This document shows positions 35,846 to 60,408 of a DNA stretch of 64,000 nucleotides, piece after piece. Under the pieces are notes generated by a model, which was not told where the DNA came from, made no database searches, and saw only the letters and a program-made list of their open reading frames with translations. How positions within the stretch are numbered: position 1 is the first letter of the stretch; each line of letters starts with the position of its first letter. The stretch is from the NCBI RefSeq assembly GCF_022809125.1, contig NZ_JALGBI010000001.1, forward strand, positions 1,116,001 through 1,180,000, written 5' to 3'. The DNA is from Variovorax terrae (GTDB lineage: Bacteria > Pseudomonadota > Gammaproteobacteria > Burkholderiales > Burkholderiaceae_C). The translations under genes and the position numbers were made by a program.

Positions 35846-36370
35846 CTACGCCGTACCGCCCGGCTTCGCGCCTACCAGGCCAGATAGATCGACGCTCGCT
35901 TTCATCGCCCCACACAAGTTCATCGCGATATAGGCCGGTAGCACTTCGACTCTACGAGTTCCGTTCGCGAAGGTGCATTCAGTGCAAATGGCGTCACCCT
36001 GATCGGCGACTGCCAGCGACGCCACGTAGAAGACGTCCCTCGCAGTGAAATAGTCTTCTTGCGTCAATTCCGGTCTTTCGTTGTTCAGCGTGTGCACGGG
36101 ATGCCGAGCCGGAAGCTGCCTCGCGTACTCCGAATCTTCCGATGCGCGCTGCAGGTCGGAGCCGTCGTAATGGCTCTCGCTGTAGTACTCGATGCTCCGA
36201 AGGAATTCCTGGAACACGTTGAGCGGCCAGTACGACAGGCGGCAAATCCCGTCGCGCATGGTGTACTTGATGCACACGCTATCGATGGCGCCGGTTGTGC
36301 AGGTGAACCCAACCCTGTAGCTGCTCACCACATCGAGTTCGCCATCGGTGCCGGGTTTCTCAAAGATCAT
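35846..36370 (-). CDS. Unknown protein, paralogue of the upstream gene
   Basis: A 174-aa protein I do not recognise. It aligns end to end with the product at 36394-36915: shared blocks include IDSVCIK, RLSYWP/Q, YYS-SH/MHY-GSDLQ, RHPV, ASLAV-D-G and RRVEVLPAYIAMNLCG. No signal peptide or membrane segment. ATG 36370 is used; a TTG three codons upstream is possible. It is the second gene of a minus-strand pair under an Ada-box-like promoter. Confidence 0.7.
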   Translation of the reverse strand: MIFEKPGTDGELDVVSSYRVGFTCTTGAIDSVCIKYTMRDGICRLSYWPLNVFQEFLRSIEYYSESHYDGSDLQRASEDSEYARQLPARHPVHTLNNERPELTQEDYFTARDVFYVASLAVADQGDAICTECTFANGTRRVEVLPAYIAMNLCGAMKASVDLSGLVGAKPGGTA

Positions 36371-36393
36371 GGCTCGCAATCAAATCAGCACAT

Positions 36394-36915
36394 TCATGCG
36401 GAGCCCGCTGGCTCTGCGCCCATCAACCGCGCCATATCGACGCTCGCCTTCAACGAACCGCAGAGATTCATCGCAATGTAGGCGGGCAACACCTCGATCC
36501 GGCGGTCGCCACGAATGGACGCGCACTCAATGCGGCAGGTGGCGCCTTCGTCAATCACCGCAAGCGATGCGACGGCGAACTGCTCCTTCGCCGCTTGGTG
36601 GTCTTCTTCGGTAAAGCTAGGCTTCTCGTCTTTCATCGTGCGAACCGGATGACGCTTGGGAAGGCTGGCGACGAATCCCGGTTCTTCTGCCGTTTTCTGC
36701 AGGTCGGAGCCGTAGTAGTGCATGCCGCTGTAATACTCGACGCACTCGTGAAGAGCCTGGAACCACCGGGGCTGCCAGTACGACAGTCGCGTGGTTCCAT
36801 CGAACATGGCGAACTTGATGCACACGCTGTCGATGGAGCCGGAGCCCACGAAGGCGGTGATGAAGCTGCTCACAAGATTCCGCTTGCTCCCCGATTTACG
36901 CTTTTCGACACGCAT
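36394..36915 (-). CDS. Unknown protein, first of a tandem paralogue pair under an Ada-box promoter
   Basis: A 173-aa cytosolic protein of unknown function, tandem duplicate of the downstream gene (23 bp apart). Conserved features are a paired tyrosine region VEYYSGMHYYGSDLQ and a C-terminal REVLPAYIAMNLCGxxKASVD-like motif with one conserved Cys. ATG at 36915 lies 34 bp downstream of a -10 box that is positioned by a GCAAGAAACGGAGTT element, so it should be induced with the alkylation-repair genes. Confidence 0.72.
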   Translation of the reverse strand: MRVEKRKSGSKRNLVSSFITAFVGSGSIDSVCIKFAMFDGTTRLSYWQPRWFQALHECVEYYSGMHYYGSDLQKTAEEPGFVASLPKRHPVRTMKDEKPSFTEEDHQAAKEQFAVASLAVIDEGATCRIECASIRGDRRIEVLPAYIAMNLCGSLKASVDMARLMGAEPAGSA

Positions 36916-36948
36916 CCTGCGTCACCAGATCCAACATGAAAGACTTTC

Positions 36949-36990
36949 AGTCTGGCTAACGAGCGCGTCAATGGAACTCCGTTTCTTGCG
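36949..36990 (-). promoter_or_regulatory. Ada-box-like promoter, minus strand (unknown paralogue pair)
   Basis: Read on the minus strand: GCAAGAAACGGAGTT begins at 36989 and CAGACT begins exactly 35 nt downstream at 36954. No -35 consensus is present. It drives the genes at 36915 to 35846. Confidence 0.8.
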
Positions 36991-37007
36991 CCGTATATCC
37001 GGCGCGA

Positions 37008-37490
37008 TCATCCGTCGAGCCCTGCTGTCGTTTGGATCGTCAGGATGAACATCGGGCTGAAACTGGGGCTGGCGCTCAAGCGCACCGGCAGCGCGAAGCC
37101 GACTTCGACATAGGGGCTCGTGTCGGCAAGGTCGGTCTTCGTGACCTGGAAGGCGAAGCACATCAGAAACTCGCAGTCGTGGTGCTGCGCTGCGCCGCCG
37201 AAGTCAATGGTGACCAATCGCCACTCGCCATCCTCTTTACCGAGCGGCACGAGGAGCTGACGCGCCCGCGCCTCAAGATAGGCACGGCTCTGCACGATCG
37301 CGATGGCCTTCTCGATCCCGATGGGGCTCGGCTTGCCATTCACATCGGCGACGACGATTTCAGTGCTGTCGGGGAGCACTGCCATCCATTCGTCATGCGG
37401 CGGTGTACCGAGCCGATGGATAGGCAAGAACTCGCTGGGGATGGCGAGCATTGCCAGATCGTGCAGGTTCGAGTCCAACGGCGATCTCAT
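37008..37490 (-). CDS. Unknown protein, second gene of a minus-strand pair
   Basis: About 160 aa, function unknown (172 aa if the start at 37526, overlapping the upstream gene by 29 bp, is used). The ATG at 37490 begins 7 bp after the stop of the upstream gene, which fits an operon. Visible features are IPSEFLPIHRLGTPPHDEW, EIVVADVNGKPSPIGIEKA and a C-terminal strand pattern FSPMFILTI. No signal or membrane segment. Its stop is 18 bp before the next Ada-box element. Confidence 0.6.
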   Translation of the reverse strand: MRSPLDSNLHDLAMLAIPSEFLPIHRLGTPPHDEWMAVLPDSTEIVVADVNGKPSPIGIEKAIAIVQSRAYLEARARQLLVPLGKEDGEWRLVTIDFGGAAQHHDCEFLMCFAFQVTKTDLADTSPYVEVGFALPVRLSASPSFSPMFILTIQTTAGLDG

Positions 37491-37497
37491 CCCGCGC

Positions 37498-37797
37498 TCA
37501 GCGCGCGATGGTTGCTGCGGCTGCATGGGAGAGGTGGTCGTTCAGACGCGAGCAGTGCTCGATGGCCTCAATCGTCGCCCGCCGAATACGATTGCCGGTC
37601 GAAATTTTCTCTGCAGTGAGCGCCGCTGCTTTCGCAACTCTGGCGGTTTGCGCCAGTCGCGCCAGTAGTGCATCGGCGTCAATGCGGTAGTGCCCTCCGA
37701 ACTGAGCACTCTTCTGCGTGAGGCGGGCAAGTTGGTCGCGAAGCCAAATGTCTCCGAGATCGGCGTAGGCGCTGGGCTGGGTCAAATGAATGGACAT
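37498..37797 (-). CDS. Unknown small protein
   Basis: A 99-aa protein, mostly helical and Ala-rich (DIWLRDQLARLTQKSAQFGGHYRID; DALLARLAQTARVAKAAALTAE). ATG at 37797 follows AAGGAG at the right distance. An upstream in-frame extension to 37875 was rejected because it would run into the promoter. First gene after an Ada-box-like promoter. Function unknown. Confidence 0.65.
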   Translation of the reverse strand: MSIHLTQPSAYADLGDIWLRDQLARLTQKSAQFGGHYRIDADALLARLAQTARVAKAAALTAEKISTGNRIRRATIEAIEHCSRLNDHLSHAAAATIAR

Positions 37798-37878: not shown

Positions 37879-37920
37879 AGCGTAGTGATCCGTCCTCGAT
37901 AGTGCTCTCTGTTTCTTGCG
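37879..37920 (-). promoter_or_regulatory. Ada-box-like promoter, minus strand (99-aa gene)
   Basis: On the minus strand GCAAGAAACAGAGAG begins at 37919 and TACGCT begins exactly 35 nt downstream at 37884. It is the most divergent box, but the spacing matches the other seven. Confidence 0.72.
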
Positions 37921-37974: not shown

Positions 37975-38016
37975 CGCAAGAATCGGAGTTGCCTGGCGAA
38001 GCCTCATCGGCAGAGT
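37975..38016 (+). promoter_or_regulatory. Ada-box-like promoter of the ChaC-like gene
   Basis: GCAAGAATCGGAGTT begins at 37976; the -10-like CAGAGT begins 35 nt later at 38011. It is divergent from the box at 37919, with the two box starts 57 bp apart. Confidence 0.8.
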
Positions 38017-38073
38017 GGCGTCAAGTGCGGATAACAACCCACGCGCATGACCACAAATGTTCAAGAGGTAATC

Positions 38074-38823
38074 ATGAGCGCCAGCAGCCTTTCGTCGCCA
38101 AGGGTGGCAAACCACGAAGGTCGAAATTCATCGCCTGTACTGACCCGGCAACTTCTGGAGAGGGGCCACATCGATGCGCTGGCCGCCATCGACTCGCCGA
38201 ACCTGAAGCTGCTCACCGAAGCCGATCGCGCGGCCTCGCTGCGGGAGACCCTGGCCTATCGGCCGCACGGCGATGTGTGGGTGTTCGGCTATGGCTCGCT
38301 GATCTGGAATTCGGCGATCAAATCCGTGGAGCGGCGCGTGGCCAGGATCGACGGCTGGCACCGGTCGTTTTGCATGTCCATCACCGCGTTGCGCGCCACG
38401 GCCGACAGGCCCGGATTGATGCTGGCGTTGGATCGGGGTGGGTCTTGCCAGGGAGCCGCGTACAGGATCGCGGAGGAAGATGTCGAGAGCGAATTGCTCT
38501 TGCTGTGGCGCCGCGAAATGGTGTGTCGCGGCGGCTACGCACCTGGTTGGGTCGAGTTGAAGACCCCCGACGGGCAACCCTTCGGCTGTGCCATCGCCTT
38601 CGTCATCGATGCAGACAGCCCCAAGTACGCGGGAGACCTTGATGAGGACATCGTGGTGCATCGGCTGGCCACGGCATCCGGTGGTCTGGGAAGCGCTGCC
38701 GACTATCTGTTCAGAACCTACGACGGCCTGCGCGCCAGCGGAATTCGTGACGCCAAGATGGAGCGTCTGGCTTCGCTGGTGAAGGCATCGCATGCGGATG
38801 ATCGTCTTCTCGCAGCGGCCTAG
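38074..38823 (+). CDS. Gamma-glutamylcyclotransferase, ChaC family
   Basis: A 249-aa protein of the ChaC family, which cleaves glutathione to 5-oxoproline and Cys-Gly in the cytosol. The substrate loop VFGYGSLIWNS (about 70-80) is intact, as are RSFCMSI and the GAAYRI block. ATG at 38074 follows AAGAGG; an upstream ATG at 38047 lacks a good site. Placement behind an Ada-box promoter suggests glutathione turnover as part of the alkylation response, which is inference. Confidence 0.85.
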   Translation: MSASSLSSPRVANHEGRNSSPVLTRQLLERGHIDALAAIDSPNLKLLTEADRAASLRETLAYRPHGDVWVFGYGSLIWNSAIKSVERRVARIDGWHRSFCMSITALRATADRPGLMLALDRGGSCQGAAYRIAEEDVESELLLLWRREMVCRGGYAPGWVELKTPDGQPFGCAIAFVIDADSPKYAGDLDEDIVVHRLATASGGLGSAADYLFRTYDGLRASGIRDAKMERLASLVKASHADDRLLAAA

Positions 38824-38825
38824 TT

Positions 38826-40097
38826 TTGGCGTCTCCGGCCGATGAATCGGTCGGCCGCGCTCTCGTGCTGCGCATCGAGCCTCGCTGCGCGAGTCTCGCC
38901 CCATGCGGGCTTCCATCGCTGACGCCTCCGGCCCTTGGTGAGGGCCTGCGCGCTGCGCTTGCCGAATGGCAGGTGTGTGCAGTGAGCGGGGGTGGGCCGC
39001 ATCCGGTGGTGGCTTCAGCGGCGCGCGAAGTGCTCAACAAGAGCGACAACGAGCGCTCTGGCGTGCTGTCCACGGCCATGTCGTTCCTCGGCCTGTACCG
39101 CGACCCCACAGTGGCCGAAGTCACGTCGCGTTGCGATTGGCGCATCGCCGACCTGATCGCTGCCGAGCATCCGGTATCGCTGTACCTCGTTGTTCCGCCT
39201 TCGGACATTTCACGGACGAAGCCGCTGATCCGCTTGATCCTCAACCAGATCGGACGGCGGCTGACCGAATCGCTCGATGGCAGCGACGGCATCGCGCGCC
39301 GCCACAAGCTACTGCTGATGCTCGACGAGTTCCCGGCCTTGGGGCGCCTGGACTTCTTCGAGACGGCGCTGGCCTTCATGGCGGGCTACGGCATCCGCAG
39401 CTTCCTCATTGCGCAGTCGCTCAACCAGATCGACAAGGCGTATGGGCAGAACCATTCCATCCTCGATAACTGCCATGTGCGCGTGACCTTCGCCACCAAC
39501 GACGAGCGCACAGCCAAACGGATCTCCGAAACGCTCGGCACCGCGACCGAGCTGCGTGCGCAGCGCAACTACGCGGGCCACCGGCTCGCACCGTGGCTCG
39601 GGCACCTGATGGTGTCGCGCCAGGAAACCGCGCGCCCGCTGCTGACGCCGGGCGAAGTCATGCAGCTACCACCCGATGAAGCCGTGGTGATGGTCTCCAG
39701 CGTGGCGCCGATCAAGGCCAAGAAGTTGCGCTACTACGCCGATAGCAATTTCAAGCGGCGCGTGCTGCCGGCGCCTGTACTGGCTGCCGGGCGCTATGCC
39801 GACGTGCCGCCCTTGCGGGCCGACGACTGGAGCGGATTGGCGATTCCCGCCGTTCCAGCGGCATCGGCCACCGAAGCCTTCGATGGCATCGGTACTGCCG
39901 ACGACGGCGGCCCACGCCGTCAGCCCGAACTCTCTGAAACCGTCGCCTACGACCCCGACCTGTCTGCACCTGCAGCCGACCTCGGCCTGCTCGATGACGA
40001 CGACATGCCGCTTCCCCTTCCGCGCCAGCTTGACCCGGCCCTGCAACGCACGGCCCGGCTGGCTTCCCTCGACCCCAACGACGGAATCGCGCTATGA
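38826..40097 (+). pseudogene. traG: 5'-truncated traG (VirD4-type coupling protein)
   Basis: Only the C-terminal half of a TraG coupling ATPase remains. Homology starts near 38998 (HPVVASAAREVLNKSDNERSGVLSTAM). Walker B (LLLMLDEFPALGRL) and the C-terminal region are present, but Walker A and the N-terminal membrane segments are gone. The open frame continues upstream to 38826 with unrelated codons and no proper start or ribosome site. The junction with the ChaC gene marks a large deletion or replacement. Confidence 0.85.
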
Positions 40098-40549
40098 GCC
40101 AGCACCGCTTGAACCTCTTCATTCAGCCCGAGCACGCCAAGCGGCTCGACGAGCTGGCCGCCACCAAAGGCGTGTCCAAATCGTCCATCGTCGCGGCCGC
40201 CTTGGCATCTTGGCTGTCTCCAGACGCTGGCGACCAGCGCGAAGCGGCAATTGCCAAGCGGCTGGATCGCCTGTCGCGCCATGCCGAGCGCCTGGAGCGC
40301 GACCAGAACATTGCCATCGAAACCTTGGCGCTGTTCATCCGCTACTACCTCACGGTCAGCACACCCGTCCCCGAGGCCCATCAAGAGGCCGCGCGTGCCC
40401 AGGGCAAGGCGCGCTTCGAGCAGTTCACCGAGCAGCTTGGCCGCCACCTGCTGCGCGGGCGCAGCCTGGTGCGAGACGTGGTGGAGGAACTGCATCCCGA
40501 CCCGATGCGGATGGCGGACACGGCCGAAGCACAGGAGCGTGCTGTATGA
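40094..40549 (+). CDS. CopG-family ribbon-helix-helix protein of the trb operon
   Basis: A 151-aa protein with an N-terminal RHH DNA-binding motif (HRLNLFIQPEHAKRLDELAATKGVSKSSIVAAAL) and a helical C-terminus. It lies between traG and trbB in Tn4371-type elements. It overlaps both neighbours by 4 bp (ATGA), so it is translated with them and may regulate transfer genes. Confidence 0.87.
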   Translation: MSQHRLNLFIQPEHAKRLDELAATKGVSKSSIVAAALASWLSPDAGDQREAAIAKRLDRLSRHAERLERDQNIAIETLALFIRYYLTVSTPVPEAHQEAARAQGKARFEQFTEQLGRHLLRGRSLVRDVVEELHPDPMRMADTAEAQERAV

Positions 40550-41580
40550 GCGCCGTTCCTTCCTTCACCGCCGTTTCCCTGGATCGCCGCATCCAGATGC
40601 TGCGCACCGCGATGGGGCCGCTGATCGCCGCCGCGCTCGAAGACCCGGACGTGGTGGAAATCATGCTCAACCCGGATCGCACCTTGTGGATCGACCGGCT
40701 TTCATCGGGGCGCTCACCGATGGGCGTGGAGCTGTCCGAAGCGGACGGCGAACGCATCATCCGCCTTGTGGCCGCCCATGTCGGCGCCGAAGTCCATCGG
40801 GGCCAGCCGCTGTTGACGGCAGAGCTGCCGGAGACCGGCGAGCGCTTCGAGGGCATCCTGCCGCCCGCTGCGCCGGGGCCGGCCTTCGCCTTGCGCAAGC
40901 GTGCCTTTGGCGTGATCCCACTGTCGCGCTACATCGAGGACGGGATGATGACCGCCGCGCAGGCGGGCCTGCTGGTGCGCGCCGTGCGTGAGCGCCAGAA
41001 CGTCCTGATCGCTGGCGGCACCAGCACGGGCAAGACGACCTTGGCGAATGCCTTGCTCGCCGAGATCGCCGCCACGGGCGACCGCGTGCTGGTGCTCGAA
41101 GACACGGTGGAGCTGCAATGCGCGGCCCGCGACCACGTACCGCTGCGCACGCGCGCAGGCGTGGTGTCCATGACTGAGCTGGTGCGCTCGTCGATGCGCC
41201 TGCGGCCTGATCGCGTCGTCGTTGGCGAAGTGCGCGGTGCCGAGGCACTGGATCTCATCAAGGTCTGGGGCACCGGCCATCCGGGAGGTATTGCCACGAT
41301 CCACGCCGGCTCCGCACTGGGCGCACTGCTGCGCCTGGAGCAACTGATTCTCGAAGTGGCGGTGAACCCGCCCCGTGCGCTGATCGCGGAAGCGGTCAAC
41401 GTGGTCATCCACATCGCCGGGCGCGGGCGCAAGCGCCGCATCGAGAGCATCGCCCGCGTCGTCGGCTTCGATGGCGTGGGCTACCACCTGGCGGATGCGC
41501 TGGAGGCTCCATTCCCGGAGCTGCTGTCGCAGTCCGACCTTTCCTCCCTGTCCCCTGACCACTCTGGAGAACTGCCATGA
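40546..41580 (+). CDS. trbB: Conjugal transfer ATPase TrbB (VirB11 family)
   Basis: Cytosolic hexameric traffic ATPase of the type IV secretion system, 344 aa. Walker A GGTSTGKTT with Lys163, Asp box LVLEDTVELQ, Walker B-like RVVVGEVRGAEAL and His box GGIATIHAGS are all present. ATG at 40546 overlaps the CopG gene by 4 bp; an upstream in-frame extension was rejected. Confidence 0.95.
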   Translation: MSAVPSFTAVSLDRRIQMLRTAMGPLIAAALEDPDVVEIMLNPDRTLWIDRLSSGRSPMGVELSEADGERIIRLVAAHVGAEVHRGQPLLTAELPETGERFEGILPPAAPGPAFALRKRAFGVIPLSRYIEDGMMTAAQAGLLVRAVRERQNVLIAGGTSTGKTTLANALLAEIAATGDRVLVLEDTVELQCAARDHVPLRTRAGVVSMTELVRSSMRLRPDRVVVGEVRGAEALDLIKVWGTGHPGGIATIHAGSALGALLRLEQLILEVAVNPPRALIAEAVNVVIHIAGRGRKRRIESIARVVGFDGVGYHLADALEAPFPELLSQSDLSSLSPDHSGELP

Positions 41581-41969
41581 CGCAGATGATCGTTCCTGCT
41601 TTCCGTATTTCCGCAAATCCGTTTCTTCGCCGCTCCAGCCCCGCGCGACTGGATGGCCTGGCTCGCCCGGCCCTGCAGGGCCTGATGCTCGCTGCGTTGA
41701 TGCTGCTGCTCGCGGGTACGGCCCAGGCCGCCGGTTCCTCGATGCCCTGGGAGGGGCCGCTGCAATCCATTCTGGAGTCGATTCAGGGCCCGGTGGCCCG
41801 GATCGTCGCGGTCATCATCATCATCGCCACGGGCCTGGCGCTGGCCTTTGGCGATACCTCCGGCGGGTTCCGCAAGCTGATTCAGATCGTCTTCGGTCTG
41901 TCGATCGCGTTTGCCGCGTCCTCGTTCTTCCTGTCGTTCTTCAGCTTCTCCGGTGGGGCCGTTGTATGA
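41577..41969 (+). CDS. trbC: TrbC, pilin subunit of the mating apparatus
   Basis: A 130-aa VirB2-type prepilin with a long N-terminal leader (processing near AQAAGSS, about residue 51) and two hydrophobic segments (VARIVAVIIIIATGLALAFG; IVFGLSIAFAASSFFLSFF). It overlaps trbB and trbD by 4 bp each. Confidence 0.92.
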   Translation: MTQMIVPAFRISANPFLRRSSPARLDGLARPALQGLMLAALMLLLAGTAQAAGSSMPWEGPLQSILESIQGPVARIVAVIIIIATGLALAFGDTSGGFRKLIQIVFGLSIAFAASSFFLSFFSFSGGAVV

Positions 41970-42250
41970 ACGGCCAACACGATGGAACGCAGGGCTTCGC
42001 CCCTGGTTTCGAGATTCCGCTGCATCGGTCTCTGACCGAGCCGATTTTGATGGGCGGTGCTCCGCGCACCGTGGCCATCACCAACGGCACCTTGGCCGCT
42101 GCCGTGGGCCTGGGCTTGCAGATGTGGATTCCTGGCGTGGTGCTCTGGATCGTCGGCCATTCGCTGGCGGTCTGGGGCGCGCGCGTCGATCCGCAGTTCA
42201 TGCAGGTCTTCGCCCGTCACATCAAGCACCGGCCGCTGCTGGACGTGTAG
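41966..42250 (+). CDS. trbD: TrbD, VirB3-like inner-membrane protein
   Basis: A 94-aa protein with the VirB3-type start (FEIPLHRSLTEPILMGGAPR) and two adjacent membrane segments. ATG at 41966 overlaps trbC by 4 bp. It acts with the TrbE ATPase. Confidence 0.92.
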   Translation: MNGQHDGTQGFAPGFEIPLHRSLTEPILMGGAPRTVAITNGTLAAAVGLGLQMWIPGVVLWIVGHSLAVWGARVDPQFMQVFARHIKHRPLLDV

Positions 42251-42262
42251 GGGGATGCCGCC

Positions 42263-45438: not shown

Positions 45439-45449
45439 CGGGTGCTGCC

Positions 45450-50358: not shown

Positions 50359-50399
50359 GCAAGAATCGGAGTTTCAGGCAGCGGCTCGATGCCTATTCT
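50359..50399 (+). promoter_or_regulatory. Ada-box-like promoter of the SnoaL-like gene
   Basis: GCAAGAATCGGAGTT begins at 50359; the -10-like TATTCT begins 35 nt later at 50394. An inverted half-site (CGCAAGAATA on the minus strand, 50394-50403) overlaps the -10 box. Confidence 0.82.
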
Positions 50400-51073: not shown

Positions 51074-51114
51074 GCAAGAAACGGAACGTACTGAAAAGAG
51101 CGCGGCAGTAAATT
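51074..51114 (+). promoter_or_regulatory. Ada-box-like promoter of the cytidylyltransferase unit
   Basis: GCAAGAAACGGAACG begins at 51074, TAAATT 35 nt later at 51109. AAT lies six bases before GCAA, the E. coli Ada-box arrangement. Confidence 0.8.
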
Positions 51115-52621: not shown

Positions 52622-53194
52622 ATGACTGAAATCGCCTGCGCCGACCCTGTGGCGCAATCGCTGCTCGCTTGGATTGCGGCAGAAAAGCAGGGCATACCCC
52701 CACCGGCTGCGGCTACGTCGCTTCTCGATGAAATGCGGCTTGAAGACCTGGTGCTGAGTCTTCTCGATCTGGACATCGAAGAGGCTGCGCAGATGGATTC
52801 CCTGGCGGATGCCAACACGCCGTTCGAGCGCTCCCCAGAGTGCTTCAACGAGACCTTGCAACAGGCCCTTCGGCAACTTCGATTGTTCAAGCTGTTTGCA
52901 AGAACGCATGACGGCGAGCACCACCGGAGCATTTGCCCGGCTGCGTACAACGAGCGCATCGGTGAGCACTACCCGGAAGAGATGGCGCGCTGGCGTGCCG
53001 ACTTTCGGGCCATGTCGCCGGAGCAGCAGATGGTGGCAACCACCATCGTTTGGATGTACCGCTCAGGCCCCGACTCGATCTGGCTGCGCCGTGTCCCTTG
53101 TACGTGGAAAGCGTCCGAGGCGCTGCACTACATGCGTGACACGGGTTGCCTCGATGTGTGGCTGCAGCTCGTCGCCAGATACCCCGGCTGGTGA
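52622..53194 (+). CDS. Unknown protein
   Basis: A 190-aa protein I do not recognise. Two parts: an acidic N-terminal helical stretch (LEDLVLSLLDLDIEEAAQMDSLADANTPFE) and a C-terminal Trp-rich part (MVATTIVWMYRSGPDSIWLRRVPCTWKASEALHYMRDTGCLDVWLQ is visible in pieces such as TTIVWMYRSGPDSIW). No signal or membrane segment. ATG 52622 chosen. It ends 17 bp before the next Ada-box element and is probably the third gene of the cytidylyltransferase unit. Confidence 0.65.
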   Translation: MTEIACADPVAQSLLAWIAAEKQGIPPPAAATSLLDEMRLEDLVLSLLDLDIEEAAQMDSLADANTPFERSPECFNETLQQALRQLRLFKLFARTHDGEHHRSICPAAYNERIGEHYPEEMARWRADFRAMSPEQQMVATTIVWMYRSGPDSIWLRRVPCTWKASEALHYMRDTGCLDVWLQLVARYPGW

Positions 53195-53211: not shown

Positions 53212-53252
53212 GCAATTTGCGGAGTTTCAAGAAGAGAGCGAATTTCTAAACT
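53212..53252 (+). promoter_or_regulatory. Ada-box-like promoter of the ogt-oxygenase-alkB unit
   Basis: GCAATTTGCGGAGTTT begins at 53212, TAAACT 35 nt later at 53247. The upstream AATTCAACCGCAA is identical to that of the box at 55254 and has AAT six bases before GCAA. Confidence 0.8.
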
Positions 53253-53286: not shown

Positions 53287-53865
53287 ATGACAACCCGTTC
53301 CGTTTCCACGTTCAAGTACAACTTTCGCGCCCCGGGCAGCCAGGTGGAAGGCCCCGTCCGCTTCGCCATTGGCCGGACGGTGCTGGGCAAGGTGATCGTC
53401 GGCCGTAGTCAGCGCGGCATTTGTGCCATCCTCCTCGGGAACGATGTCCAGGCGCTGCGCGATCAGCTCGCGACAGCTTTTCCAGCCATCGAACTGCAGG
53501 ACGGCCAGGATGCGCTGGAACGCGAACTGAGCCAGGTCGTCGCCTTCATCGACAAGGACAGTTCCGAGGGTGTCGTGAATCTCGACATCGGCGGTACGCT
53601 CTTTCAGCAAAAGGTCTGGCATGCGCTGTGCGGCATCCCGGCAGGCAAGACCCGCAGCTATGGCGACGTGGCGCGCGACCTCGGGGTGCCCGAGGCCGTC
53701 CGTGCCGTGGCCGGTGCCTGTGCGGCCAACGTGCTAGCCATCGCCATTCCATGCCATCGCGTGGTGCGCAGTGACGGTTCGATCTCTGGTTATCGTTGGG
53801 GTGTGGATCGCAAGCGTGCGCTGCTGACCGATGAAGCGGCTGCAGCCGCGGAGCTGGCAGCGTGA
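53287..53865 (+). CDS. Methylated-DNA-protein cysteine methyltransferase, Ada C-domain type
   Basis: A 192-aa suicide repair protein that removes O6-alkyl groups from guanine. The acceptor is Cys156 in IAIPCHRVV; the Asn hinge is replaced by conserved neighbours GISGYRWG and the HTH-like RAVAGACAAN is present. The N-terminus (FAIGRTVLGKVIVGRSQRGICAILLG) matches the C-terminal domain of the island's Ada (FAVGQCSLGAILVAQSQRG), so it looks like a separated copy of that domain. Confidence 0.93.
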   Translation: MTTRSVSTFKYNFRAPGSQVEGPVRFAIGRTVLGKVIVGRSQRGICAILLGNDVQALRDQLATAFPAIELQDGQDALERELSQVVAFIDKDSSEGVVNLDIGGTLFQQKVWHALCGIPAGKTRSYGDVARDLGVPEAVRAVAGACAANVLAIAIPCHRVVRSDGSISGYRWGVDRKRALLTDEAAAAAELAA

Positions 53866-54584
53866 AAGTCACGGAGAATCAGAGCAGCATCATGAAGCCC
53901 CATGCCTACGACTGGATAGGCATCGGGCGGTCGCTGGATGCGCATGGAAATGCCGTGCTGCCCGGCCTTCTGACGGCGGAGCAATGCGATGGCCTTGCTG
54001 CCCTCTATCCGCAAGAGGAAGGCTACCGCACGCGCATCGTCATGGCCCGCCACGGGTTCGGGCGCGGCGAGTACAAATACTTCGCTTACCCGTTGCCGCC
54101 GTTGCTCGAACAACTGCGCCACGCGCTCTATCCCTGGCTGGCGCCAATTGCCAATCGCTGGAATCTGCAATTGGGCATCGACGTGCAATACCCCGACGGG
54201 CTGGCGGCATTTCTGCGGCGATGCCACGAGGCGGGCCAGACGCGGCCCACGCCACTGATCCTCCAGTACGGTGAAGGCGACTACAACTGCTTGCATCAGG
54301 ATCTCTACGGCGATCACGTTTTCCCGTTGCAGGTCGCCATTCTGTTGTCGGAGCCTGGCCAGGACTTCGCCGGCGGCGAGTTCGTCATGACGGAGTTTTC
54401 ACCCAAGGGCCAGCGCGCGGATGTGGTTCCGCTGCGCAAGGGCGACGCGGTGGTGTTCACCGTTAACCAACGGCCCGCTATGGGTCGGCGTGGCACCCGC
54501 AAGGTCGCTATGCGGCACGGCGTCAGCCGCATCCGTAGCGGCCAGCGCCACACCGTGGGCCTGATCTTTCACGACGCGAGGTGA
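53862..54584 (+). CDS. 2OG-Fe(II) oxygenase, DUF2086/Oxygenase-NA type (copy 1)
   Basis: A 240-aa oxygenase of the family annotated as acting on damaged nucleic acid (COG3826-like). The metal set is His145-x-Asp147 (CLHQDLYGDHVFPLQ) and distal His219 (MRHGVSRIRSGQRHT). GTG at 53862 overlaps the ogt stop and has GGAG upstream; ATG 53892 is an alternative. Paralogues lie at 57907 and 58937. It sits between ogt and alkB, pointing to alkylation repair, but the exact substrate is not proven. Confidence 0.87.
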   Translation: MKVTENQSSIMKPHAYDWIGIGRSLDAHGNAVLPGLLTAEQCDGLAALYPQEEGYRTRIVMARHGFGRGEYKYFAYPLPPLLEQLRHALYPWLAPIANRWNLQLGIDVQYPDGLAAFLRRCHEAGQTRPTPLILQYGEGDYNCLHQDLYGDHVFPLQVAILLSEPGQDFAGGEFVMTEFSPKGQRADVVPLRKGDAVVFTVNQRPAMGRRGTRKVAMRHGVSRIRSGQRHTVGLIFHDAR

Positions 54585-54586: not shown

Positions 54587-55237
54587 ATGGAAACGCTCGA
54601 ACTCTTCGAGGCTCCAACGCGGCCATCGCGCCAGCGCCTGGGGCCTGCCGCGATGGTGCTGAGGGGCTTCGCCCTGCCTTACGTGCAGGAAGTGATGCCT
54701 GCCATCGACATCATCGATGCCATGTCGCCGTTCCGGCACATGGTGACGCCGGGCGGCTTCACCATGTCGGTGGCGCTGACGAACTGCGGCGCGCTCGGAT
54801 GGACGACCGACCGACGCGGCTACCGCTACACCTCGGTCGATCCTGATACCGGGGAGCCCTGGCCAGTCATGCCGGAGGTGTTCGCCCGGCTGGCGAGCGA
54901 GGCCGCGAAGGCGGCAGGCTTCGACAGCTTCGAGCCCGATGCCTGCCTGGTCAACCGCTACACGCCGGGCGCGCGGCTGTCGCTGCACCAGGACAAGAAC
55001 GAGCGCGACTACGACGCGCCCATCGTTTCGGTGTCGCTGGGCATGCCGGCGACGTTCCTGTTCGGTGGCCATGCGCGCACCGACCCCACGGTCAAGGTGC
55101 CGTTGCAGCACGGCGACGTGGTGGTGTGGGGCGGTGCCGACCGCCTGCGCTACCACGGCGTGATGCCGCTCAAGGATGAGCCCCATGCGCTGCTCGGGAG
55201 TCAGCGCATCAATTTCACCTTCCGCAAGGCGGGCTGA
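54587..55237 (+). CDS. alkB: Alkylated DNA repair dioxygenase AlkB
   Basis: Oxidative demethylase for 1-methyladenine and 3-methylcytosine, 216 aa. Fe ligands are His134-x-Asp136 (SLHQDKNERD) and His190 (RYHGV); the 2-oxoglutarate arginines are in RINFTFR. Length matches E. coli AlkB. Start METLELFE at 54587; a GTG two codons earlier overlaps the previous stop. Third gene of the ogt unit. Confidence 0.95.
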   Translation: METLELFEAPTRPSRQRLGPAAMVLRGFALPYVQEVMPAIDIIDAMSPFRHMVTPGGFTMSVALTNCGALGWTTDRRGYRYTSVDPDTGEPWPVMPEVFARLASEAAKAAGFDSFEPDACLVNRYTPGARLSLHQDKNERDYDAPIVSVSLGMPATFLFGGHARTDPTVKVPLQHGDVVVWGGADRLRYHGVMPLKDEPHALLGSQRINFTFRKAG

Positions 55238-55253: not shown

Positions 55254-55294
55254 GCAAGAGACGGAGTTTTTTCTTGCGGCGACATCCCTAGAGT
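55254..55294 (+). promoter_or_regulatory. Ada-box-like promoter of the small protein-ogt-alkA unit
   Basis: GCAAGAGACGGAGTTT begins at 55254, TAGAGT 35 nt later at 55289. AAT lies six bases before GCAA. An inverted half-site TTCTTGCGG (55271-55279) follows directly. Confidence 0.82.
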
Positions 55295-55317: not shown

Positions 55318-55509
55318 ATGAACACGATTACCGCAGACTCGCCGAGCGAGTTGTCCGACGCGCGCAGCCAGGTCGAAGCCTATTGCCAGTCGCTGGTCGA
55401 TACCGGCGAAGCGCAATGGCGCATCAACGATGACGGGTACACCGAGCTGCACATGGAAGGTGGCGAAGCGTACCTGTTTGGCGAGTTCGGGGTGACGCGG
55501 CTGAGGTGA
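55318..55509 (+). CDS. Unknown 63-aa protein
   Basis: A small acidic protein (AQWRINDDGYTELHMEGGEAYLFGEFGVTRLR). The C-terminal half reads as three short beta strands. Unknown function. ATG at 55318 lies 29 bp after the -10 box of an Ada-box promoter, and ogt follows 38 bp later, so it is the first gene of that unit. Confidence 0.65.
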   Translation: MNTITADSPSELSDARSQVEAYCQSLVDTGEAQWRINDDGYTELHMEGGEAYLFGEFGVTRLR

Positions 55510-55547: not shown

Positions 55548-56099
55548 ATGAAACTGTTTTTGAGCCAATTGGATTCGCCGCTGGGCGCGATGCTGCTCGT
55601 CACCGATGCGCAACACGTGGTGCGTGCGCTCGATTTCGCCGACCACGAGGCGCGGCTGCATCGCGGCCTGCGCGAGCACTATGGCGAGGTGGAACTGGCC
55701 CAGGCTCCGGCCCCGGCCGAGATTGCCGATGCCCTGGCCCGCTACTTCGATGGTGACTTGGAGGCGCTGAACGTGCTGCGCACGGCGACCGCCGGTTCGG
55801 AGCTGCAGCGCCGGGTCTGGGCGGCGCTGCGCCGCATCCCAGCGGGCACGACCACCACCTACGGCAAGCTCGCCAAGGAGCTGGGCTTTGACGATCCGCG
55901 TGCAGCCATCGCCATCGGGGCGGCCAACGGCGCCAATCCGATAGGCGTCATTGTCCCGTGCCATCGTGTCATTGCGAGCGACGGCGGCCTCAAGGGCTAT
56001 GCCTGGGGCTTGCATCGCAAGCGCTGGTTGCTGGAGCACGAGAAGGCTATCGCCCCCAAGGAGGAAGAGCCGCAGACCGCCATGTTGCTGGGGTTTTGA
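55548..56099 (+). CDS. ogt: Methylated-DNA-protein cysteine methyltransferase, Ogt type
   Basis: A 183-aa O6-alkylguanine transferase with acceptor Cys138 in VIVPCHRVIASDGGLKGYAWG and the helix RAAIAIGAANGANP. It belongs to a different branch from the copy at 53287 and is closer to E. coli Ogt. ATG at 55548 follows GGAG. The AlkA-like gene starts 2 bp after its stop. Confidence 0.95.
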   Translation: MKLFLSQLDSPLGAMLLVTDAQHVVRALDFADHEARLHRGLREHYGEVELAQAPAPAEIADALARYFDGDLEALNVLRTATAGSELQRRVWAALRRIPAGTTTTYGKLAKELGFDDPRAAIAIGAANGANPIGVIVPCHRVIASDGGLKGYAWGLHRKRWLLEHEKAIAPKEEEPQTAMLLGF

Positions 56100-56101: not shown

Positions 56102-56746
56102 TTGAGCGCAACCATTGCAGCCGACATTTCTCCACGCGCCTATCAGCGAGCTTCCAAGTTCTTGTCCGAGCTGGACGAGGATTGGGCTCGCCACATCGCC
56201 GCCATTGGCCCGTGCCGCCATGAGGCCAAGCCTGCGCGAGAGCCCTACGAAGCCTTGGTGCGTGCGATTGCCTACCAGCAACTGCACGCCAAGGCGGGGG
56301 ATGCGATCCTGGGCCGCCTGCTGGCGCTTTATCCGGGTGTTTCCTTTCCTACACCTGAACAATTGCTGGCGAGTGACCCTGAGACGCAGCGCGCCTGCGG
56401 CTTCTCTGCCACCAAGCTGGCGACCATCCGCGGCATCGCGCAGGCGACGGTCGAAGGCGTTGTGCCCAGCCTGAAAGAGGCACTGGGCCTGCCCGATGCT
56501 GCCCTGATCGAGCGCCTGGTCTCCTTGCGGGGTGTCGGGCGCTGGACGGTCGAGATGTTTCTGATCTATTCGCTGGAACGCTCCGACATCCTGCCGGTGG
56601 ACGACTTCGGCGTGCGGGAAGGCTATGGACGCCTCAAGGGACTGGAGAAGGCGCCCACACCGCGCCAGATGCGCGAGATCGGCGAGGCGTGGAGTCCGTT
56701 TCGGACGGTGGCGGCCTGGTATCTGTGGCGCCTTCCCGCTCGATAG
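56102..56746 (+). CDS. alkA: DNA-3-methyladenine glycosylase, AlkA/HhH-GPD family
   Basis: A 214-aa base-excision glycosylase. The helix-hairpin-helix LVSLRGVGRWTVEMFL is followed by the catalytic Asp168 in ILPVDDFGV. It lacks the N-terminal TBP-like domain of E. coli AlkA and so resembles the short AlkA/Mag1 type. The start is a TTG at 56102 after GGGG; no ATG is available in the right place, so the start is tentative. It ends 9 bp before the ada promoter box. Confidence 0.9.
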   Translation: MSATIAADISPRAYQRASKFLSELDEDWARHIAAIGPCRHEAKPAREPYEALVRAIAYQQLHAKAGDAILGRLLALYPGVSFPTPEQLLASDPETQRACGFSATKLATIRGIAQATVEGVVPSLKEALGLPDAALIERLVSLRGVGRWTVEMFLIYSLERSDILPVDDFGVREGYGRLKGLEKAPTPRQMREIGEAWSPFRTVAAWYLWRLPAR

Positions 56747-56755: not shown

Positions 56756-56796
56756 GCAAGAATCGGAGTGCTTGCGACGGAAGGCCTGCGTACTCT
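56756..56796 (+). promoter_or_regulatory. Ada-box-like promoter of the ada operon
   Basis: GCAAGAATCGGAGTG begins at 56756 and TACTCT 35 nt later at 56791; an inverted CTTGCG follows the box at 56771. It implies autoregulation of ada. Confidence 0.83.
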
Positions 56797-56829: not shown

Positions 56830-57894
56830 ATGAATACGATCATTGCTTACGAAACCGACGACGAGCGCTGGGCGGCCGTGCAGGCCCGCGATGCCGGCGC
56901 CGATGGCCAATTCGTCTACGCCGTGCGCACGACCGGCGTGTACTGCCAGCCCAGCTCGTCGGCGCGACTGCCCAAGCGCGAGAACGTGGAGTTCTTCGAT
57001 ACCGCCGAAGCCGCCGAAGCAGCGGGCTACCGTGGCAGCCGCCGCGCACATGGTGACCAGACCAGTGTCGCTGCGGAACGCGCGGCGCTGGTGGCGCGCG
57101 CCTGCCGCATGATCGAGACCTCGGAGACGCCGCCCCAGCTCGACGACCTGGCAGTCGAAGTGGGCGTGAGCCCGTTCCACTTCCATCGCCTCTTCAAGGC
57201 CGAAACCGGCTTGACGCCCAAGGCGTACAGCTCGGCTTACCGAGCCCGCAAGCTGCGCGAGGAACTGAGTAGCCCGGATGCGTCGATCACCAACGCGATC
57301 TATGACAGCGGCTTCAATTCCAACAGCCGGTTCTACGAAGCCTCCGATCAGTTGCTGGGCATGCGTGCGCGCGACTACCGGGCCGGCGGCGCCGGCGCGG
57401 TCATTCGCTTCGCGGTGGGTCAATGTTCGCTGGGCGCCATTCTGGTGGCGCAGAGCCAGCGCGGCATCTGCGCGATCTTGCTGGGCGATGACCCTGACAA
57501 GCTGGTGCGCGACCTGCAGGATCAATTCCCCAAGGCCGAGATCATCGGCTGCGACGGTGAGTTCGAGCAGTTGATCGCCCAGGTGGTGGGCTTCATCGAA
57601 GCGCCTTCGATGGGGTTGCATCTGCCGCTGGACGTGCAGGGCACGGCCTTCCAGGAGCGCGTTTGGCGCGCGCTGCGCGAAATCCCGCCGGGCACCACGG
57701 TGAGCTATGCGGACATCGCCGCGCGCATCGGCTCGCCCACGGCGGTGCGCGCCGTGGCCCAGGCCTGCGCCACGAACCACATTGCCGTCGCCATTCCCTG
57801 CCACCGCGTCGTGCGGCGCGATGGCGATATTTCGGGCTATCGCTGGGGCGTGGATCGCAAGCGCGAACTGCTGCGCCGCGAAGCGCAGGCTTGA
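56830..57894 (+). CDS. ada: Ada: bifunctional regulator/O6-methylguanine transferase with degenerate zinc site
   Basis: A 354-aa protein with the three Ada parts: N-terminal Ada domain (1-80), AraC-type HTH (about 90-180; HFHRLFKAETGLTPKAY) and transferase domain with acceptor Cys324 (AIPCHRVV). In E. coli Ada four cysteines bind zinc and the first takes a methyl group from phosphotriesters. Here only that first one remains (Cys39, VYCQPSSSAR); the others are Ser43, Ser70 and Ala73 (RGSRRAHGD). Zinc binding and classical activation therefore look lost. First gene of the final operon. Confidence 0.93.
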   Translation: MNTIIAYETDDERWAAVQARDAGADGQFVYAVRTTGVYCQPSSSARLPKRENVEFFDTAEAAEAAGYRGSRRAHGDQTSVAAERAALVARACRMIETSETPPQLDDLAVEVGVSPFHFHRLFKAETGLTPKAYSSAYRARKLREELSSPDASITNAIYDSGFNSNSRFYEASDQLLGMRARDYRAGGAGAVIRFAVGQCSLGAILVAQSQRGICAILLGDDPDKLVRDLQDQFPKAEIIGCDGEFEQLIAQVVGFIEAPSMGLHLPLDVQGTAFQERVWRALREIPPGTTVSYADIAARIGSPTAVRAVAQACATNHIAVAIPCHRVVRRDGDISGYRWGVDRKRELLRREAQA

Positions 57895-57906: not shown

Positions 57907-58614
57907 ATGACTGCGATCAACACCACTATCGACCACCTGGACTGGGCCAACATCGGAGCACAGCTCGATGCCGAAGGCTACGCCTTACTGCCCGGTCTTC
58001 TGGGCGCTGACGTTGCCCGGAAACTGGCGCAGCACATGCGGACGGAGAAACATGCGAAGGGAGAGCCGCTGCACTCGGCTGATCTGGGCGGCGCTGACTT
58101 GCTCTCCTTCGGCGCGAGCCTGCCAGCGCCGCTGGATGTGTGGCGCACGGCGCTCTACGCGCACCTGGCCGTGATTGCCAATCGCTGGAACGAAACCCTG
58201 GGCATCGCTGCGCGCTATCCCACCGCGCTGGAGGAATTCCAGCGGCGCAACCAGAAGGCGGGTCAAACACGCGGGCAGTCTTATCTGAGTCGGCTCGTCA
58301 TGGGCAACCATGTGCCGCTGCACCAGCGCAGTGACGGCGAGCAGGTGTTTCCGCTGCAAGTCGTTGCGGTGTTGTCCGAGCCGGGCACGGATTTCCAAGG
58401 CGGCGAGTTCGTGATGACGGAGCAGCGCCCGCGCATGCAGTCGCGTCCGCTGGTGCTGCCGCTTCAGCTCGGCGATCTGGCCATCATCGCCACGGCCGAA
58501 CGCCCGTTCAAGGGCACGAAGGGCCACTACCGCGTCAATCTCAAGCACGCCATCAGTCGCGTGCGCAAAGGAGAGCGCATCGGCCTGGAACTGTCGTTCC
58601 ACGATGCGCCGTAA
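57907..58614 (+). CDS. 2OG-Fe(II) oxygenase-like protein (copy 2, altered metal site)
   Basis: A 235-aa paralogue of the oxygenases at 53862 and 58937. The distal His214 (KHAISR) is kept, but the first metal motif reads His139-Gln-Arg141 instead of His-x-Asp (PLHQRSDGEQVFPLQ). An Asp three residues after Gln140 might substitute, otherwise the protein is inactive as an oxygenase. It lies 12 bp after ada and overlaps the next frame by TAATG. Confidence 0.83.
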   Translation: MTAINTTIDHLDWANIGAQLDAEGYALLPGLLGADVARKLAQHMRTEKHAKGEPLHSADLGGADLLSFGASLPAPLDVWRTALYAHLAVIANRWNETLGIAARYPTALEEFQRRNQKAGQTRGQSYLSRLVMGNHVPLHQRSDGEQVFPLQVVAVLSEPGTDFQGGEFVMTEQRPRMQSRPLVLPLQLGDLAIIATAERPFKGTKGHYRVNLKHAISRVRKGERIGLELSFHDAP

Positions 58615-58643
58615 TGCACCGTGATACCTGGGGAGGATTGCAC

Positions 58644-58940
58644 GTGCTCACTCAAAACAAGGCATTCACGTTGCTCGGGACGAACGGCAAGCCGTATGCG
58701 AGCGCTGCGCCTGGAACGTTCGGCGGCCACCGGGGCGGCAAACTCTACGGCCGCCTGGATTGCCGTGCAGCGCTACAGGCGATTGCCCGTGGCGGCTATG
58801 TGAAGCACCGCGTTTTCTTCGCCAACGAGGCGACGGCCATCGCAGCCGGTTACCGGCCGTGCGCCGTCTGCATGCCGCAGGAGTACGCGGCATGGAAGAA
58901 GACCCAGCCCATCAAAACCAAAAAAGAGGCCCGCCCATGA
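58644..58940 (+). CDS. Stand-alone Ada-type metal-binding domain protein
   Basis: A 98-aa protein consisting of an Ada metal-binding-like domain: KLYGRLDC with Cys40, then AGYRPCAVC with Cys73 and Cys76. Aligned with Ada, these match zinc ligands C42, C69 and C72, while the acceptor position C38 is Gly36. GTG at 58644 is preferred because GGAGG lies 7 bp upstream and the product then begins like other solo members; ATG 58614 would add ten residues. It overlaps the next gene by ATGA. Confidence 0.83.
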   Translation: MLTQNKAFTLLGTNGKPYASAAPGTFGGHRGGKLYGRLDCRAALQAIARGGYVKHRVFFANEATAIAAGYRPCAVCMPQEYAAWKKTQPIKTKKEARP

Positions 58941-59695
58941 GCGCACTATTGTCCGCGTCCGCAGATGCGGAAATCCATGCACCGAGCGGCGCACTTGAAT
59001 CCGGCATCGACACTGCGGACTGGCGTGCGGTCGAGGACGATCTGGGACGCGACGGCTTCGCCGTGCTGCCCGCGCTGCTGACGCCGCAGCAGTGCAACGC
59101 CATCGCGGGCTACTTCTTCGAGGAGGAGCGTTTTCGCAGCCGCATCGTGATGGAGCGCTACGCCTTCGGCCGGGGCGAGTACAAGTATTTCAGCTACCCG
59201 CTGCCCGATGTGGTCGGGCGACTGCGCCAGTCGCTGTATCCGCACCTGGCGCCCATCGCCAACCGCTGGCACACCGCCATGAAGATCAACGAGCGCTTCC
59301 CGGCGACCCATGACGAATTCCGGGCGGTCTGCCATGCCGCCGGCCAGCAGCGGCCGACGCCGCTCCTGTTGCGTTATCAGGCCAATGACTATTGCTGCCT
59401 GCACCAGGATTTGTACGGCGATCACGTCTTCCCGTTCCAAGTCATCTTCCTGCTCAACGAGCCAGGGCGCGACTTCCAGGGGGGCGAACTGCTGTTGACG
59501 GAAAGCAACCCGAAGCAGCCCGGCCGCGCGGACGTGGTGCCGCTGCGCCAAGGCGATGCCGTGGTGCTGGCCGTCAACCACCGGCCCGTGCGTTCCGCGC
59601 GAGGCTTCTATCGGTCGAGCCTACGTCATGGGGTCAGCCGGCTGCACTCGGGCCAGCGGCACACACTGGGCGTCATCTTCCACGACGCTAGGTGA
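58937..59695 (+). CDS. 2OG-Fe(II) oxygenase, DUF2086/Oxygenase-NA type (copy 3)
   Basis: A 252-aa paralogue with an intact site: His156-x-Asp158 (CLHQDLYGDHVFPFQ) and His231 (LRHGVSRLHSGQRHT). It is closer to copy 1 than to copy 2. ATG at 58937 follows AGAGG and overlaps the Ada-like gene by 4 bp. Part of the ada operon; presumed to act on alkylated nucleic acid. Confidence 0.87.
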   Translation: MSALLSASADAEIHAPSGALESGIDTADWRAVEDDLGRDGFAVLPALLTPQQCNAIAGYFFEEERFRSRIVMERYAFGRGEYKYFSYPLPDVVGRLRQSLYPHLAPIANRWHTAMKINERFPATHDEFRAVCHAAGQQRPTPLLLRYQANDYCCLHQDLYGDHVFPFQVIFLLNEPGRDFQGGELLLTESNPKQPGRADVVPLRQGDAVVLAVNHRPVRSARGFYRSSLRHGVSRLHSGQRHTLGVIFHDAR

Positions 59696-59745
59696 GCCAC
59701 TGGGTTTGCAGCGGGAACTTGTTCGCCTGTCATCAGGCCGGGGCG

Positions 59746-60408
59746 ATGATGAGTGAGCGAGAAATTCAGCCACGCATGGCGTGGATGGCCGCCACGTCGC
59801 TGTCGTTGCTCAAGCCTTGGCTGCGACGCGCGCTCATGTCGTTGGCAAGCGCGCTCGCACAGCAAGGCGTAACAGCCAATCAGATCACCGTTCTGTCGAT
59901 CGTGGTTTCAGTTGCGCTGGGCGCATGCTTGGCGCTCAATCCCGGGCGACCGGTCTTGCACGCCCTTGTGCCGCTGTGGCTGGTGGGGCGCACGGTCTTG
60001 GCATCGTTGGATGGAACACTCGCCGTCTGTTTTGGACAGAAGAGCAGAATTGGTGGATTCCTCAATGAAGCGGGGGACATTGCTTCTGACATCGCGCTCT
60101 ACGCTCCCTTGGCACTGGTCAGTCCGTTCACGGCTTCGCAGGTGGCGCTGGTCTTGGCGCTGGCGGTCGCGGGCGAACTCACGGGGGTGTGCAGCGATTG
60201 GCTGGGCGCTGGCCGTCGATGCGAGGGCCCGTTGGGCAAGGCTGACCGCGCAATCGCGTTTGCCGCCCTCAATGTCTGGGTCGCTGCTCAGGGAGGACTC
60301 CCCGACTGGGCTGGCATCTTGATGCCAATCTTGGCAATATTGGCCGGTCTGACCCTCGTAAACCGCCTTAGGTTCGCTGCCTGCCAGCCAAAGGCGGGTT
60401 CAAGGTAA
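59746..60408 (+). CDS. CDP-alcohol phosphatidyltransferase family protein
   Basis: A 220-aa inner-membrane protein with about five or six hydrophobic segments and a CDP-alcohol phosphotransferase motif that runs DGTLAV ... GGFLNEAGDIASD. Asn replaces one Asp of the consensus, as in the YnbA branch as I recall it, and the usual Arg after DGxxA is Val. It would join a CDP-linked alcohol to a lipid or polyol. Start ATG 59746 (GTG 59692 overlapping the oxygenase stop is possible). Last gene of the ada operon and of the element. Confidence 0.8.
   Translation: MMSEREIQPRMAWMAATSLSLLKPWLRRALMSLASALAQQGVTANQITVLSIVVSVALGACLALNPGRPVLHALVPLWLVGRTVLASLDGTLAVCFGQKSRIGGFLNEAGDIASDIALYAPLALVSPFTASQVALVLALAVAGELTGVCSDWLGAGRRCEGPLGKADRAIAFAALNVWVAAQGGLPDWAGILMPILAILAGLTLVNRLRFAACQPKAGSR

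Follow-up and report, generated by a model that had tools for sequence, protein, structure and literature searches.

The zinc thiolate of Ada is the textbook damage-sensing electrostatic switch, and in Escherichia coli the Ada regulon consists of ada-alkB, alkA and aidB. A second regulator, Cada2 of Caulobacter, has no A-box domain, recognizes a B box (GCAA) and an X box (CGG), carries an RLHD motif and is activated through the cysteine of a PCHR motif, according to the parts of Kamat et al. (2024, PMC10957082) drawn on here. For Pseudomonas putida, the parts of PMC3788762 drawn on here describe an Ada-dependent alkA promoter induced ∼60-fold by methyl methanesulfonate, place alkB outside the Ada regulon, and report that the Ada boxes of E. 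coli and P. putida are not exchangeable. Here we analyse a 64,000-nucleotide stretch of the Variovorax terrae genome (NZ_JALGBI010000001.1, positions 1,116,001 to 1,180,000), referred to as the window, in which an integrase/trb island carries an ada gene and eight copies of a 15-nt box. We propose, with a probability of roughly 0.6 for the statement as a whole, that these eight elements serve as the Ada-dependent promoters of a single regulon for alkylation damage on the island, triggered via the C-terminal cysteine of Ada. We are highly confident of the narrower claim that they are Ada promoters, because box and spacing match the Ada-dependent, methylation-induced promoter of the P. putida alkA-ada type.

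Eight boxes at a fixed distance from the −10 hexamer

A first-pass annotation of this DNA had described eight boxes on both strands, and all eight were verified base by base. Each has GCAA exactly 35 nt, counted from the first G of the box (+35), upstream of a −10-like hexamer, and none has TTGACA at the −35 position (8/8), which is the layout of ada/aidB-type promoters. The eight hexamers are the ones named before, in a different order. An A box in the arrangement AAT-N6-GCAA was likewise found in three boxes, the number claimed.

36975..36989, minus strand: Ada-type box (B+X); hexamer CAGACT at 36949-36954; upstream of orf173 (and orf177); the related gene in the second cargo copy (copy 2) is also boxed
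37905..37919, minus strand: Ada-type box with 3 mismatches; hexamer TACGCT at 37879-37884; upstream of orf99 and orf172; in the copy-2 comparison
37976..37990, plus strand: Ada-type box; hexamer CAGAGT at 38011-38016; upstream of chaC
50359..50373, plus strand: Ada-type box; hexamer TATTCT at 50394-50399; upstream of the SnoaL-like gene; in the copy-2 comparison
51074..51088, plus strand: Ada-type box with A box AAT-N6-GCAA; hexamer TAAATT at 51109-51114; upstream of the nucleotidyltransferase unit
53212..53226, plus strand: Ada-type box with A box AAT-N6-GCAA, 4 mismatches; hexamer TAAACT at 53247-53252; upstream of ogt1-oxy1-alkB; in the copy-2 comparison
55254..55268, plus strand: Ada-type box with A box AAT-N6-GCAA; hexamer TAGAGT at 55289-55294; upstream of orf63-ogt2-alkA; in the copy-2 comparison
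56756..56770, plus strand: Ada-type box; hexamer TACTCT at 56791-56796; upstream of ada-oxy2-miniAda-oxy3 and probably also of the last gene; in the copy-2 comparison

Three boxes match the consensus without mismatch, two have one, two have three and the 53212 box has four. GCAA is present in all eight and CGG at +8 in seven (the 37919 box has CAG), with a GCAA-CGG distance of 4.

The possibility that a GC-rich window produced these boxes by chance or composition is negligible. With up to 3 mismatches the window holds 9 boxes against 1.62 expected, a number reached by 0 of 100 shuffles; YANNNT stands at +35 in 7 of the 9, and at none of the other offsets from 25 to 46 in any of them. When up to 5 mismatches are allowed there are 95 boxes, and a hexamer stands at +35 in exactly the eight of the earlier list. 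First-order Markov simulation of 200 windows yielded a mean of 0.01 composites per window and a maximum of 1 (3-mismatch boxes). In the own genome (4.93 Mb) the pattern GCAAGNNNCGGAGTK-N20-YANNNT has 11 matches, five in the window, five in a second cargo copy and one on contig C2, and the reversed-pattern control has 0. A chance origin was rejected on the shuffles and Markov simulations, and the genome-wide motif search that had been suggested as a check revealed no scatter at random density, 10 of the 11 composite matches lying in the island or its diverged second copy.

This second cargo copy (C1:1010896-1017031, ∼136 kb from the window cluster) matches most of the cargo, gene order included, at 74–82% DNA identity. 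In six promoter pairs the two copies agree at 85/90 box positions and 32/36 hexamer positions, and are less conserved in the spacer (82/120), downstream (76/120) and upstream (59/120).

The same promoter was found in other genomes. We fetched the best 80 of 117 confirmed Ada-relative loci; box counts also take in the window and copy 2 (82 sequences), require GCAA and allow up to 2 mismatches. These sequences contain 125 boxes, 123 of them distinct, and YANNNT stands at +35 in 111 of the 123, the next best offset (46) having 14; the reversed pattern gave 12 boxes. The consensus is approximately GAATTCRACC-GCAAGAAWCGGAGTK-N20-TANNCTG, with a nearly free spacer. When the promoter of ada itself was examined (at most 4 mismatches in the box, and NANNNT at +35), 68 of the 80 Ada loci were positive, which are 68 of the 72 loci whose Ada has lost three zinc cysteines (zinc-less, see below). 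The 12 others are eight four-cysteine P. putida-type loci, L036, where the contig ends, L053, L078 and L079 (Pseudomonas simiae, with a single ada in its genome), the last having its hexamer one base further than +35. The eight P. putida-type loci fetched all have the box ahead of the alkA-ada pair, and its +35 hexamer is TAAGCT.

In E. coli, CATACT (aidB) and CAGCCT (ada) stand at +35 from the G of GCAA, offsets read from the sequence and not mapped −10s; the E. coli alkA promoter does not fit. The ada promoters of Citrobacter (CACACT), Salmonella (CACACT) and Klebsiella (CAGACT) have their hexamers at the same offset. Since E. coli aidB and ada and these three other Enterobacteriaceae promoters fit, the 35-nt distance seems to be a rule for Ada promoters of the ada/aidB type. 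The box is not specific to the island, and the distance recurs more widely, including in E. coli and other Enterobacteriaceae. An association test of the composite pattern over 369 genomes of the class gave matches in 12 (11 single) versus 6 with the reversed control, too sparse to use, and a one-mismatch scan of 100 relatives found matches in 19 genomes, mostly single.

It is very improbable that the boxes belong to a different regulator merely travelling with the island. In favour of it, the conserved box bases CGGAGT are absent from the E. coli ada box. However, the box precedes ada in 68/80 loci, while the island integrase, traG and trb proteins (eight searched) occur near only 1/80 (L036, DUF2274 only); the same box stands at the experimentally Ada-dependent P. 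putida promoter; and the B+X motif resembles the Cada2 motif derived by chromatin immunoprecipitation. We rejected the other regulator on the first two of these grounds, which also support the earlier reading of the elements as activator-type promoters belonging to Ada.

An Ada without its zinc site, and its proposed trigger

56830..57894, plus strand: ada; N-terminal Ada domain, AraC-type helix-turn-helix (HTH) pair and O6-methylguanine methyltransferase domain

The regulator had been assumed to be an ordinary Ada, and it is not. In E. coli numbering, used throughout (island C39 is E. coli C38 and island C324 is E. coli C321), the zinc-ligand positions C38, C42, C69 and C72 read C, S, S and A, so that three of the four cysteines are lost. 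C42, C69 and C72 are lost in 72 of the 80 Ada loci. The zinc-less Ada of Cupriavidus metallidurans CH34 shares 92% identity with that of the island. The window Ada keeps the DNA contacts R45 and R71 (A box) and F114, H115 and R118 (B box), roles taken from the parts of PMC3788762 used here. R45 is conserved in 75 of the 76 zinc-less rows and R71 in 74; R118 and C321 are present in every one. A quick tree of 94 rows, with 48 of its 91 inner branches drawn open, requires at least 2 changes to explain zinc loss. A fold model of the island Ada has a mean pLDDT (predicted local distance difference test) of 64.8, high in residues 11–70, fair to 140 and poor in the C-terminal half. Viral contigs yielded one relative, its match confined to residues 270–352. 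Within the open-licence literature, to which the search was limited, we found neither a description of a zinc-less Ada nor a report of a mobile Ada regulon or of one that includes ChaC.

A candidate reader of the X box is position 167: in the alignment it falls on the arginine of the RLHD motif in L215, a Cada2-like protein (GRLHD). It is R in 76/76 zinc-less and 17/18 four-cysteine rows, and S in the four Enterobacteriaceae Ada proteins compared, whose ada promoters lack CGG at +8 (three have CGG at +9, and E. coli has none). L196 also has S at 167, and its best box also lacks CGG at +8. This match between Arg167 and CGG, drawn from alignments, is a correlation over few independent changes.

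The promoter thus consists of a variable A box (AAT), a B box (GCAA) and an X box (CGG, in most cases at +8), followed by 20 nt of almost free spacer and, at +35, the −10 hexamer. Beyond this anatomy, its conservation and the residue pattern, which are observed, we infer the following course of events. The first HTH of the island Ada would read the B box, Arg167 of the second HTH, at the position of the RLHD arginine of Cada2, very probably reads the X box, and the retained Arg45 and Arg71 would read the A box. Bound there, ∼47 nt upstream of the start, Ada would recruit RNA polymerase, the end of the box lying roughly where one would expect a −35 element to start. By analogy with Cada2, the switch is most likely the transfer of an alkyl group to the acceptor cysteine of the C-terminal PCHR motif. 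Because C42, C69 and C72 are replaced, transfer from a methyl-phosphotriester to a zinc thiolate is an unlikely trigger; with three of four zinc cysteines gone, the textbook Ada trigger cannot simply be transferred to this protein. These bacteria may thus run their alkylation response by a different trigger than the metal-site sensor.

Two other triggers would leave the promoters and their regulator in place. One is direct alkylation, or attack by another electrophile, at the lone C38 thiol without zinc, the altered side chain then letting the N-domain bind the A box. C38 is kept in 70/76 zinc-less rows and in 116 of the 120 nearest proteins, all 120 of which have lost C42, C69 and C72, and C69 has become Ser in 71/76 rows and 120/120 nearest proteins; because C38 is kept and C69 became Ser, the zinc site looks remodelled rather than decayed. 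We nevertheless consider this trigger unlikely, since C38 is gone in 6/76 zinc-less rows. Five of the 80 loci are C38-less, and four of these are boxed at their own promoter and the fifth before the preceding oxygenase gene. The Ada of a Morganella plasmid (L148) has lost all four zinc ligands including C38, and its alkB-ada operon keeps the B+X box, though with AATACT as the +35 hexamer. Slightly less probable again is that zinc-less Ada activates constitutively or serves in repair alone, any induction coming from another sensor such as the host AdaA-AlkA, the mini-Ada described below or a canonical Ada elsewhere. Candidates for such a sensor exist: the own genome encodes the mini-Ada and a four-cysteine Ada-AlkA fusion (544-amino-acid open frame, G000:C1:773003-773194, L114), and a further four-cysteine protein was read in 6 of 20 genomes searched (some further loci were not read). 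Yet in 8 of the 20 genomes, partly drafts, zinc-less Ada is the only PF02805 match besides mini-Ada; the host fusion differs at the HTH and R45 positions; and in PMC10957082 a Cada2 mutant with constitutive activity showed impairment when exposed to mitomycin C. We prefer activation through the C-terminal cysteine.

Several observations weigh against this preferred model. The retention of C38 suggests that it has a remaining role, and since the C-terminal cysteine is needed for repair anyway, its invariance is no proof of a switch. Several island promoters have a poor A box, an exact CGG at +8 is found in 52 of the 68 ada promoters in the Ada loci, and the GCAA-CGG distance of 4 differs from the 3 stated for Cada2 in the parts of PMC10957082 used here. 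In a phylum-wide sample, box (A or X element) and +35 hexamer were found in the stretch searched for 5 of 18 full-length Ada proteins, and 2 of 18 were zinc-less, the window's being included in both counts; thus neither the architecture nor zinc loss is universal. Of 9 four-cysteine plasmid loci, mostly alphaproteobacterial (L144-L147 and L149-L153), 6 likewise have the box architecture. These, together with the four-cysteine P. putida-type loci boxed before alkA, led us to reject the notion that the extended box is special to zinc-less Ada. Finally, the open-licence literature yielded no expression or binding data for zinc-less Ada.

Cargo genes and the island

As the first-pass annotation had it, ada, two ogt genes, alkB and an alkA-type glycosylase gene stand behind these promoters. 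The cargo is as follows.

35846..36379, minus strand: orf177, paralogue of orf173
36394..36915, minus strand: orf173, unknown; 41 database matches
37008..37526, minus strand: orf172, unknown; orthologue in copy 2
37498..37797, minus strand: orf99, unknown; orthologue in copy 2
38047..38823, plus strand: ChaC-type gamma-glutamylcyclotransferase (PF04752)
50461..50934, plus strand: SnoaL-like protein (PF07366); boxed in 6/82 sequences
51156..51629, plus strand: cytidylyltransferase-like protein (PF01467)
51681..52550, plus strand: alpha/beta hydrolase (PF12697)
52622..53194, plus strand: orf190, no family match
53287..53865, plus strand: ogt1, O6-methylguanine methyltransferase (PF01035)
53892..54584, plus strand: oxy1, Oxygenase-NA (PF09859)
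54587..55237, plus strand: alkB-type 2OG-Fe(II) oxygenase (PF13532)
55318..55509, plus strand: orf63, small conserved open reading frame; no Pfam match; matches in 10/80 Ada loci
55548..56099, plus strand: ogt2, O6-methylguanine methyltransferase (PF01035, PF02870)
56102..56746, plus strand: alkA-type HhH-GPD glycosylase (PF00730)
57907..58614, plus strand: oxy2, Oxygenase-NA (PF09859)
58644..58940, plus strand: mini-Ada, stand-alone Ada metal-binding-like domain (PF02805 partial); matches in 18/80 Ada loci
58937..59695, plus strand: oxy3, Oxygenase-NA (PF09859)
59692..60408, plus strand: CDP-alcohol phosphotransferase-like protein; no Pfam match, weak NCBIfam matches below cut-off

The regulon probably includes the ChaC, SnoaL-like and three oxygenase genes. 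AlkB and the three Oxygenase-NA paralogues would bring the 2OG-Fe(II)-type oxygenases of this one regulon to four, and the cytidylyltransferase-like (51156-51629) and CDP-alcohol phosphotransferase-like (59692-60408) genes appear co-regulated, as if making a lipid head group. Mini-Ada has conserved LDCR and RPCAVC motifs and might carry the zinc chemistry lost by Ada. None of the 41 orf173 matches has a functional name; two are from the own genome and seven others apparently lie on contigs of close Ada relatives, and the family seems to travel with this ada.

Among 127 composite sites in this and other genomes, the boxed genes include an Oxygenase-NA cluster (8), SnoaL (6) and ChaC (3, with a weak, short match in L068). 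Further boxed genes, named from sequence reading, are flavin reductase-like (3: L033, L042, L078), SDR (3: L034, L039, L047) and TMEM175-like (3: L038, L044, L058). Annotated SDR, gamma-glutamylcyclotransferase or flavin reductase genes adjoin ada in L145, L150 and L152, and an ester cyclase gene does so in L153. The adjoining gene is chaC in two alphaproteobacterial plasmids (L150, L152); in the Pseudosulfitobacter locus L150 (2818, minus strand) it is divergent from ada and is preceded by an Ada-type box of its own, GCAAGGAACGGAGTG, whose +35 position reads CATACC rather than YANNNT. The ChaC family degrades glutathione. As a hypothesis, ChaC would lower glutathione and so slow the thiol activation of nitroso compounds.

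To the left of the island lie enolase, CTP synthase and coaBC-type genes. The island itself runs from the integrase through a YhcG-type nuclease, the minus-strand unknowns, chaC, the traG piece and the trb operon to the repair cargo, which ends at 60408.

33490..34695, plus strand: tyrosine integrase, island left end (PF00589, PF13356)
34371-35762: YhcG/DUF1016 PDDEXK nuclease gene, between integrase and cargo
38826..50344, plus strand: conjugation genes: the C-terminal part of a truncated traG, then a trb operon with a DUF2274 gene at its end

The island had been called mobile. Integrase, trb operon and second cargo copy agree with this, but traG is a C-terminal piece (profile positions 201–456 of 468) and not a complete coupling protein, and the island has no PF03432 relaxase; the single PF03432 match in the own genome is on contig C3 (other relaxase families were not searched). 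This part of contig C3 (G000:C3:645803-673960), with the relaxase and a second TrbI gene, might help mobilise the island. Copy 2 lacks the chaC-traG-trb stretch, the nucleotidyltransferase gene and the hydrolase gene. Because its junction retains the 3′ end of the DUF2274 gene, we read copy 2 as a deletion derivative, that is, an old island whose transfer genes have since been lost. Mobility holds over evolutionary time. A comparison of the two end regions (32500-33600 and 60300-61500) turned up no exact repeat of more than 12 bases, which leaves the attachment site undefined, and no tRNA was found in the window.

Comparison with described Ada systems

If a large clade of Ada proteins has given up the zinc thiolate without losing its regulon, its promoter or its DNA contacts, the trigger must now sit elsewhere. 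We tentatively suggest, at somewhat below even odds for all parts jointly, that a third, widespread class of adaptive-response regulator exists: a full-length Ada with a dismantled zinc switch (C-S-S-x) that reads a tripartite promoter (A+B+X) held at 35 nt from the −10 and is switched by alkyl transfer to its C-terminal cysteine. Such a class would bridge E. coli Ada and Cada2, suggest that the E. coli system is a reduced form minus the X box and the phosphotriester sensor dispensable, and have been mobilised with a large regulon including the glutathione-degrading ChaC. The +35 rule is also a search tool, and already puts non-repair genes (ChaC, SnoaL, flavin reductase-like, SDR, TMEM175-like) behind Ada boxes elsewhere.

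Tn4371-type integrative and conjugative elements have a tyrosine integrase, traG and a trb operon ending in DUF2274, all of which recur in the island. The island differs in its truncated traG and in lacking a PF03432 relaxase, and neither repA nor parA was found among the island genes examined.

The P. putida alkA-ada system shares the box GCAAGAACCGGCGTT (or one base off) with TAAGCT at +35 in 8 related loci, as well as Arg167. Its Ada, however, keeps four zinc cysteines and sits in a two-gene operon. The X box may explain why the E. coli and P. putida Ada boxes are not exchangeable.

With E. coli Ada, the island Ada has in common the domain order, R45/R71, the HTH contacts and the PCHR cysteine, and the two regulons share AAT-N6-GCAA (in part of the island promoters) and the +35 hexamer (ada and aidB in E. 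coli). In contrast to E. coli, three of four zinc cysteines are missing, CGG at +8 and Arg167 are both present, and the regulon comprises many more genes and lies on an integrase/trb island. Like Cada2, the island system has GCAA and CGG boxes, an arginine at the RLHD position, the PCHR cysteine and no zinc switch. Unlike Cada2, the island Ada retains the A-box domain, with an A box at part of its promoters, and reads RFYE in place of RLHD, only the arginine being shared. The island Ada thus departs from each published class, E. coli Ada and Cada2, in a defining feature, and shares features of both.

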